The notes under the pieces: generated by a model
Told to the model about the DNA's origin: nothing
Databases searched by the model: none
Seen by the model: only the letters and a program-made list of their open reading frames with translations
Assembly (NCBI RefSeq): GCF_037996765.1
Contig: NZ_JBBNAD010000005.1
Span: 1,272,001-1,336,000 of the forward strand
Origin: Bdellovibrio sp. GT3
Lineage (GTDB): Bacteria; Bdellovibrionota; Bdellovibrionia; Bdellovibrionales; Bdellovibrionaceae
Direction of reading: 5' to 3'
DNA: 64,000 nt
Translations under genes and position numbers: made by a program
Shown here: positions 29,747-31,286 of the stretch, in pieces
How positions within the stretch are numbered: position 1 is the first letter of the stretch
How the letters are laid out: each line of letters opens with the position of its first letter

Positions 29747-30112
29747 ATGTCTCTAACTAACGATCAACTTGTTGACGCATTGTCTGCGAAAACAGTTCTT
29801 GAAATCGCTGAACTTGTAAAAATGCTTGAAGAAAAATGGGGCGTTTCTGCTGCTGCTCCTGTAGCTGCTGCAGCTGGTCCTGCTGCTGCTGTTGAAGAAA
29901 AAACTGCATTCGACGTAATCTTGGTTGATGCTGGCGCGAACAAAATCAACGTAATCAAAGAAGTACGTGGTTTGACTGGTTTGGGTCTTGCTGAAGCTAA
30001 AGCACTAGTTGAAGCTGGTGGCAAAGCTGTTAAAGAAGGCGCGACTAAAGAAGACGCTGAAAAAATCAAAAAAGCTCTTGAAGCTGCGGGCGCGAAAGTT
30101 ACTGTTAAGTAG
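29747..30112 (+). CDS. rplL: 50S ribosomal protein L7/L12
   Basis: Flexible stalk protein that recruits and stimulates translational GTPases. 121 residues: N-terminal dimerisation helices, an Ala-rich hinge ([18 protein letters not shown]), and the C-terminal domain with [36 protein letters not shown] precedes the ATG. A terminator follows, so unlike the usual rplJL-rpoBC arrangement this unit ends here. Confidence 0.98.
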
Positions 30113-30144
30113 TTTTTTGCTACCAAAATTTTTGGTTCATGCCG

Positions 30145-30179
30145 AAAGCCTCGTGGAAACACGGGGCTTTTTGCTTTTT
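30145..30179 (+). terminator. Rho-independent terminator after rplL
   Basis: AAAGCCTCGTG pairs with CACGGGGCTTT (one wobble) around GAAA, followed by TTGCTTTTTA. A GNRA-type tetraloop and T-rich tail make it convincing. Confidence 0.92.
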
Positions 30180-30202
30180 AGGACCTTGAATTTGCGAAGA
30201 CC

Positions 30203-30346
30203 GCCGGGCTTTTCGAGAATCCGCTGGCTTCCCTCTGTATTTTTCGACACGCGCATCCGGCGCTCACCCGGCTTGGGTACCGCATCCTGCGGGCCGGGAG
30301 GTCGAAAACTTCAGAGGCAATCCATCAGCTTCTCGAAAATCCCGGC
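30203..30346. repeat. 144-bp element with 46-base imperfect terminal inverted repeats
   Basis: The left arm 30203-30248 and the reverse complement of the right arm 30301-30346 agree at 38 of 46 positions without a gap, sharing blocks GCCGGG, TTTTCGAGAA, CCTCTG and TTTTCGAC. Inside, CCCGGC (30267-30272) and GCCGGG (30293-30298) form a second stem. No coding frame is credible. It lies between the rplL terminator and the convergent lipoprotein gene, and resembles a MITE-like insertion or dispersed palindromic repeat. Eight mismatches suggest age or selection on structure rather than a recent copy. Confidence 0.7.
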
Positions 30347-30401
30347 TTGTTGCTAAATGTGTGGATAAAAAGCAACAAGATCCGAATTTTTTGAGATGGA
30401 G

Positions 30402-31145
30402 TTACCAGGCGAAGCCTATTTTTACTGCTAGGGCGTCTTGGTTTTTTATGTGGCGGGCTTTTTTCCAGTCGATGATGATTTTATTGTATTCGATGCCGTA
30501 GCGGAGACCGCTTCCTGTTGAGGTGATTCCTGTAGCGAAGTATTCGTGGGTGCCGTTGGTGTCGTAGGGGCCGAAACTGCCGTTAGGGTTTGTTACGTTT
30601 GTTGAGACATCGTGGGTTTCGCGGATATACGAGAAATAGGGGGCTATTTTTTCGTATTTGTATCCGATGCTTGCACCCAGTTGTCTTGTGCTGACTTTGG
30701 ATTTTGCTTCGCTGGTGCTGCTGTTGGTTGTATTTTCTGTGGTAACATCTCTGTTGCCGGCGGCTCCGTGGATGCTGGCAACCCAATTGTTCGAGGTTGC
30801 TCCGTGATTTAAGATTTGAACTCGGGCACCTAGGAGTGAGTTATCAAAGAAAAGTTCCAGTCCTTTCCATGCGGTGATTCTGCCGTCTAAGCCTACGTTA
30901 TTAAAAAGGAAAAAGTCTCCAGTGTCCACGTCTGCGTTGATCACCGTTGGGTCGGTGACGGGTGGGTTTGAGGAAGTGTCGTTCACGACAGTCACTTTGG
31001 TTACGGATCCGACAACGACCGCGAGCTGGCCGCTGCCGGCATTGTCTTCGACGATCGGGGTGGCGAAATGGGATGATCTGAAGTTAATTGTGTGGGTGCA
31101 GCCAGTGAATAAGATAGCAGCTAATAGCGGTAAAAAACTTTTCAT
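30402..31145 (-). CDS. Predicted outer-membrane lipoprotein with barrel-like C-terminus
   Basis: Unassigned 247-residue protein. The signal peptide ends in the lipobox LFTGC with the lipidated Cys at 16. The rest is Ser/Thr/Asn-rich with alternating hydrophobic strands (LGASIGYKYEKIAPYFSYIRE, GLRYGIEYNKIIIDW) and a terminal Trp (VKIGFAW), typical of outer-membrane barrels. A lipid anchor plus barrel is unusual, and the Cys could instead be a coincidence. ATG 31145 follows GAGGAC; ATG 31157 is four codons earlier. It is the only minus-strand gene in the supercluster and sits exactly between rplL and rpoB, divergent from rpoB. Confidence 0.75.
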   Translation of the reverse strand: MKSFLPLLAAILFTGCTHTINFRSSHFATPIVEDNAGSGQLAVVVGSVTKVTVVNDTSSNPPVTDPTVINADVDTGDFFLFNNVGLDGRITAWKGLELFFDNSLLGARVQILNHGATSNNWVASIHGAAGNRDVTTENTTNSSTSEAKSKVSTRQLGASIGYKYEKIAPYFSYIRETHDVSTNVTNPNGSFGPYDTNGTHEYFATGITSTGSGLRYGIEYNKIIIDWKKARHIKNQDALAVKIGFAW

Positions 31146-31286
31146 AGTTGTCCTCATGTGAAAATCCTACGGACTGCTTTGTGATATGACAACAAATGCG
31201 GCAAACGAGGTCCCAATGCGATGCGCTAATCAATCGAGCTGATGGCTGTGGAATAGTGCCAAAAACCATCAGAATCACTTGATTTA

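Follow-up and report, generated by a model that had tools for sequence, protein, structure and literature searches.

Anatomy of a large hairpin downstream of rplL

The window, a 64,000-nt stretch of the Bdellovibrio sp. GT3 genome (contig NZ_JBBNAD010000005.1), carries rplL at 29747–30112 (Pfam L7/L12) and rpoB from 31393 onwards. The following features lie between the two genes.

30144–30180, plus strand: rplL intrinsic terminator, distinct from the hairpin element
30192–30358, minus strand: whole element, approximate ends, its basal stem/internal loop (TTTGCGAAGACCGCC.../...TTGTTGCTAAA) conserved in part
30203–30248, minus strand: left arm (3′ arm of the folding strand), locus-specific in sequence, pairing kept
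30246–30303, minus strand: three-way-junction head (GAC...GTC), GC-rich, the main sequence-conserved part among copies
30251–30263, minus strand: head hairpin P2 (GCGC-atccg-GCGC on the plus strand), pairing 100% across 17 copies, with covariation at one pair
30267–30298, minus strand: head stem P3 (CCCGGC/GCCGGG) with a UUGGGUA bulge, three of six pairs covarying
30280–30292, minus strand: apical hairpin P4 (CCGCAtccTGCGG), the most conserved stretch, occurring once in the window
30301–30346, minus strand: right arm (5′ arm of the folding strand), identified by fold, complementarity and covariation
30347–31100, minus strand: skewed flank, T+G-rich on the plus strand and hence A+C-rich on the minus strand
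30402–31157, minus strand: ORF of 251 aa between rplL and rpoB, ahead of rpoB

Each arm is 46 nt long, and 38 of the 46 positions are complementary (83%) across a spacer of 52 nt, just as the preliminary description had it. The second CCCGGC/GCCGGG stem that it placed inside the repeat (30267–30272/30293–30298) is also there and corresponds to head stem P3. The 191-nt region with the window copy has a predicted fold of −78.3 kcal/mol (z −4.0), and none of 200 shuffled sequences was as stable. Since the element lies past the rplL terminator and the junction holds a minus-strand ORF, it is intergenic between rplL and the 251-aa ORF. An insertion between rplL and rpoB had been described, of which the intergenic position stands; the exact neighbours are rplL and the ORF, which had gone unmentioned. 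The ORF has no Pfam match; it is lipoprotein-like and, among the loci compared, is found at rplL–rpoB in this species only. The basal motif TTTGCGAAGACCGCC.../...TTGTTGCTAAA is common to rplL–rpoB copies of several species.

An apparently undescribed hairpin family in Bdellovibrionota

A DNA search of 40 relatives showed that the central 58 bases (30246–30303) are dispersed in 12 genomes, with a second place in the window's own genome, where the arms of the window copy have no second match. For wider counts, we used a covariance model built from an alignment of 17 copies. It placed copies in 22 of the 24 genomes of the genus (1–26 per genome, eight in this one) and gave matches in 47 of the 144 genomes of the class as well as in other families of the phylum Bdellovibrionota, with 241 genomes searched in total; weak matches were accepted by eye on their anatomy for those displayed, not for all. 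Distant copies show the same anatomy, i.e., an imperfect base, a long unique stem and a three-way-junction head with hairpins, whose loops are mostly UC(C/G). CsrA-type GGA loops on the minus strand were considered and dropped, since the loops also read CGA.

Rfam 15 contains no match at gathering score. In phage, plasmid and viral collections, queried with the window sequence and the Bdellovibrio-type head only, no copy of either was detected, and the exact head pattern was returned from two Bdellovibrio MAGs only. A literature search yielded nothing relevant on Bdellovibrio REP sequences, hairpin sRNAs or strand-asymmetric flanks. The window copy belongs to a dispersed family of giant hairpins in Bdellovibrionota that is apparently undescribed. 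The earlier proposal of a dispersed palindromic element is thus borne out: the head recurs at other loci of this and related genomes, rather than at one place only, and its structure is conserved.

Many copies begin 40–80 nt past the stop codons of conserved genes (rplL, ssb, MmgE/PrpD-like, rpoD), as expected if the hairpin were a long terminator, an mRNA 3′-end structure or an RNase III processing stem of the upstream gene. We consider this improbable. At rplL, the gene's own intrinsic terminator precedes the element and is the only one near it, no U-tract directly follows the hairpin, some copies lie between divergent genes (dnaX locus), and many genomes have no copy at a given gene. The large processing stem offered in the preliminary description fails in addition to explain a conserved head at many unrelated loci and the one-sided skew of the flanks described below.

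Related heads were found within single genomes (G082, G074 and G087), which would imply amplification or concerted evolution. Close pairs of elements (L013, L015, L042, L053, L032 and others) are always arranged plus then minus on the model strand, ∼300–740 nt apart. The copies of G074 (L132–L138; one genus) are ∼285 nt long, carry the extra conserved internal-loop boxes GGCTGCGGCGTGGG and CAAGCTCGGTCTTCC, and end with GGGGATTTTT, which resembles a transcript 3′ end. A second type of giant hairpin with near-perfect arms and another conserved head (GACAGTCCTCGCGGACGC...GCTGCTGCGGAACTCG) was seen 160–220 nt from an element in two species (L161:1287–1362 and L175:1249–1323).

Arm sequences are replaced with pairing kept

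Over 166 distinct elements, the strict stem, paired almost perfectly, reaches a median length of 36 bp, with irregular pairing on to ∼76 bp, and nearly every locus has an arm sequence of its own. In the 17-copy alignment, 33 of 35 stem pairs are changed on both sides, and the covariation score is 0.646 compared to 0.157 for shuffled and at most 0.22 for slid alignments. Orthologous copies of two species, with flanks ∼91% identical, have arms that range from identical to wholly different yet paired, and at L074/L091 the arms are replaced wholesale between flanks of ∼91% identity. Hence, arm turnover is faster than flank turnover. In most ortholog pairs with arms alignable in phase, double Watson-Crick changes are more frequent than single ones: nine double and no single changes at L078/L090, 13 and one at L079/L095, six and two at L072/L088. 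The arm changes are therefore compensatory, a point that the preliminary description had left to be checked.

Isolated mismatches differ strongly between the strands and, read on the minus strand, are mostly G.U (71 vs. 23 A.C) and G.A (74 vs. 9 C.U). The G.A excess stems in part from an internal loop of one subfamily; the G.U/A.C sites are scattered. The mismatch types show that one strand, the minus strand in the window, is kept foldable. Because RNA and single-stranded DNA share this mismatch preference, the asymmetry tells which strand folds, but not which molecule.

The main rival to a hairpin acting at the DNA level is an RNA reading, in which the minus strand in the window encodes one copy of a multicopy structured non-coding RNA with a protein-binding head, a sequence-free double-stranded spacer stem and an A/C-rich 5′ flank selected to be unstructured. 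The strong covariation, the RNA-like mismatch tolerance on one strand, the internal-loop modules and 3′-terminal GGGGATTTTT of the G074 copies, and the divergent arrangement of paired copies on the minus (folding) strand all speak for such an RNA. Yet the arms in the 17-copy alignment contain few G-U pairs, a search upstream of the elements revealed no promoter-like enrichment over composition, the three copies of the presumed HD100 genome, at 423474–423602, 2307508–2307639 and 3086125–3086247, lie off its attack-phase sRNAs (PMC3627812), and there is no Rfam family. Together with the flanking skew, these points leave the RNA a serious but rather unlikely explanation.

A one-sided skew extends up to 1 kb into neighboring genes

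The DNA on one side of the element, the side 5′ of the folding strand, is strongly biased in composition. In the window this side points rightwards, towards rpoB; its minus strand is enriched in A and C at the expense of G and T. On the plus strand, T+G amounts to 0.62–0.67 per 150 bp between 30351 and 30800 (window mean, 0.513), and the element-level value is 0.67 compared to 0.52 on the other side. On the minus strand, A+C makes up 75% of the four-fold degenerate sites of the 251-aa ORF, more than in any other minus-strand gene of the window (28–59%).

Across the family, A+C is 0.62 at 100–250 nt from the element and returns to baseline near 1 kb; the opposite side is flat. The skew is present in 146 of 166 elements (p ∼1e-24, with orthologous loci and related species not being independent) and in every genome group examined. 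Loci without it exist, e.g., L084 of G022 (A+C 0.48). It crosses coding sequence in either orientation: with flanking genes called by simple ORF rules, four-fold sites of genes sense to the folding strand fall from 0.76 to 0.46 A+C over 1.2 kb (baseline, 0.40), and those of antisense genes show 0.71 against a baseline of 0.59. The opposite flank shows no such gradient at four-fold sites beyond the first 200 nt. An A/C gradient running ∼1 kb into genes of either orientation at synonymous sites argues against an RNA whose 5′ flank is selected to be unstructured. As the purine total stays nearly constant along the skewed flank, the shift is for the most part consistent with transitions (G>A and T>C on the minus strand, i.e., C>T and A>G on the plus strand).

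This sign is that of a non-template strand, and a recurrent R-loop triggered by the hairpin, or strong transcription in plus direction, might expose the plus strand and thereby give a one-sided, decaying skew. Promoters are not conserved, however, and the skew occurs even at L066, a locus with no gene transcribed towards the element, making this explanation highly improbable. Replication orientation was rejected as the cause, since the copies of G011 are evenly split by strand in both chromosome halves (origin assumed at position 1).

The skew follows the element among orthologous genes

In two species, an element lies ∼150 nt past the stop codon of a methyltransferase-like gene. Over the last 600 nt of this gene, A+C at four-fold sites is 0.91/0.86/0.84/0.76 in one and 0.91/0.73/0.92/0.82 in the other; in ten orthologs lacking the element most bins lie at 0.27–0.65, with one higher value of 0.71 (G017, last 150 nt). 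For an outer-membrane-like gene, 23 orthologs were compared. The values are 0.95/0.84/0.85/0.71/0.64 in G019, where the skewed side of the element faces the gene, and 0.38/0.45/0.60 in G014, where the element is reversed. Over the last 450 nt, 20 of the 21 other orthologs have 0.44–0.64, and G017 reaches 0.90/0.78/0.71 next to a hairpin whose head is divergent and which escaped the model. This hairpin (L254) lies ∼200–330 nt after the stop codon, and the family may include head types missed by the model. At L237 and L238, downstream of the same gene, runs of N fall exactly within hairpin loops; assembly gaps or masking may hide more copies.

Polarising the changes over the terminal 450 nt of the gene in G019 gave more keto>amino (32/143) than amino>keto changes (14/155, p 0.002); the former comprise 21 transitions and 11 transversions. 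In the element-less sister of G019 the corresponding numbers are 14 and 23. The one-sidedness of the skew, its tracking of element presence and orientation in two sets of orthologs and the family-wide gradient lead us to attribute it, on comparative grounds, to the element as the probable cause.

One site suggests loss by deletion, and the family fits known mobile repeats poorly

The single near-empty site compared is L084, where G022 has a copy and G011 and G021 have differing arm remnants without a head. The remnants look as if left by palindrome deletion, which suggests loss rather than clean insertion: the two deletion scars differ, and there is no visible target-site duplication. The flank on the skew side of this locus in G022 has 43 derived changes in 937 sites compared to 16 in 925 on the other side, with no strong A+C excess; in G011, which has lost the hairpin, there are 38 and 33. 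The L092 gap is filled with other DNA in both relatives and hence gave no empty-site comparison. Terminal sequence is shared only as subfamily-level basal motifs (G044, G074), the arms being otherwise unique. Locus-unique arms, the lack of a visible duplication and the deletion scars fit a classical MITE or simple transposition poorly, contrary to the MITE-like origin suggested earlier.

A REP/REPIN-type miniature element moved by a RAYT would be another form of mobility. Within the genus, Y1_Tnp gene counts track element counts (Spearman 0.65, p 0.0006), and REPIN spacers likewise carry compensatory changes (PMC3116915). But both counts also track genome size, the association is not significant at class level (Fisher p 0.07), and G044 has 18 copies and no Y1 gene. 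An element is near only two of 20 Y1 loci, ∼1.5 kb off, and long flanking inverted repeats of the element's kind are present at none of them. Five Y1 loci carry a different repeat, no GTAG/CGTC tag is conserved at the palindrome foot when heads, arms and bases are aligned, and the conserved part is the apex, not the ends. RAYT mobility is thus largely refuted and hardly probable at all. The five Y1_Tnp loci in question (L185, L188, L189, L191 and L192, in G000, G011 and G022) are ringed by their own repeat, GGGGTATCGGTCA, often as inverted pairs, which is likely a REP/REPtron system of Bdellovibrio. A retron or diversity-generating retroelement was rejected, as RVT_1 is absent here and from 20 of the 24 genomes of the genus (present in four).

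A possible hairpin-directed mutator

We favor, with moderate confidence, a family of giant hairpins that acts at the DNA level, seeding one-directional synthesis or single-strand exposure, with template switching renewing the arms. Somewhat more tentatively, the hairpin may be a local, orientation-dependent mutator that rewrites its own stem and pushes up to 1 kb of its neighbors towards A+C on one strand. The extruded hairpin would be recognised via its head and then processed, either through nicking or by serving as a start or stall site. To its right, the plus strand would undergo repeated displacement and resynthesis, or stay single-stranded, and wobble misincorporation or deamination could then convert C to T and A to G on this strand. 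During synthesis, the new end might fold back, switch template and copy one arm from the other. Fold-back switching of this kind would account for perfect arms, for the prevalence of double Watson-Crick changes and for the fast turnover of the arms.

Perfect stems are known to arise, and to be kept, through template switching (PMC8794818), and mitochondrial strand gradients are reportedly produced by single-strand exposure linked to replication (PMC8565317, PMC3269015). Against an action at the DNA level, no nuclease, polymerase or deaminase is linked to the element; the Y1 transposase is absent from the 18-copy genome and RVT_1 is rare. Transversions (G>C, T>A) also contribute to the skew, whereas simple deamination predicts none.

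If the element causes the skew, bacteria carry a dispersed hairpin that steers mutation to one side and one strand, measurably altering codons and amino acids of neighboring genes. One could then test orientation-controlled local mutation directly in a predator amenable to genetics, and the family would offer a clean natural system for how long stems stay perfectly paired as their sequence changes. Should it turn out to be an RNA, the family would still be an unlisted one, spread across the phylum and with covariation of unusual strength.

Comparison with known systems

We know of no counterpart of the kilobase one-sided skew among REPINs and BIMEs. In other respects these repeats, with their RAYTs, are similar to the Bdellovibrionota element in being dispersed intergenic hairpins that are strand-asymmetric, often located at gene 3′ ends and subject to compensatory changes in their variable part (PMC3116915, PMC2817692, PMC6006769). 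However, REPINs conserve their ends, whereas the Bdellovibrionota element conserves its apex and varies its stem; it has 1–26 copies per genome, no GTAG/CGTC tag was seen, and the local RAYTs are associated with another repeat. Within the same genus, merRNA, a c-di-GMP riboswitch RNA (PMC3627812), is likewise a structured non-coding locus; in contrast, the element is multicopy, lacks an Rfam match and lies at other coordinates in the presumed HD100 genome.

The hairpin of the mitochondrial light-strand origin likewise comes with a strand-specific, distance-dependent C>T/A>G gradient on the exposed strand, which is replication-linked and strongest at third codon positions (PMC8565317, PMC3269015). 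Unlike this origin, the element is present in many dispersed copies on bacterial chromosomes, its gradient spans ∼1 kb, and origin activity is only putative. In template-switch hairpins and quasipalindrome correction, one arm is likewise copied from the other, giving apparent double substitutions (PMC8794818, PMC7202029). The Bdellovibrionota element differs in that close species can also have entirely new arms at one and the same site, around a conserved head.
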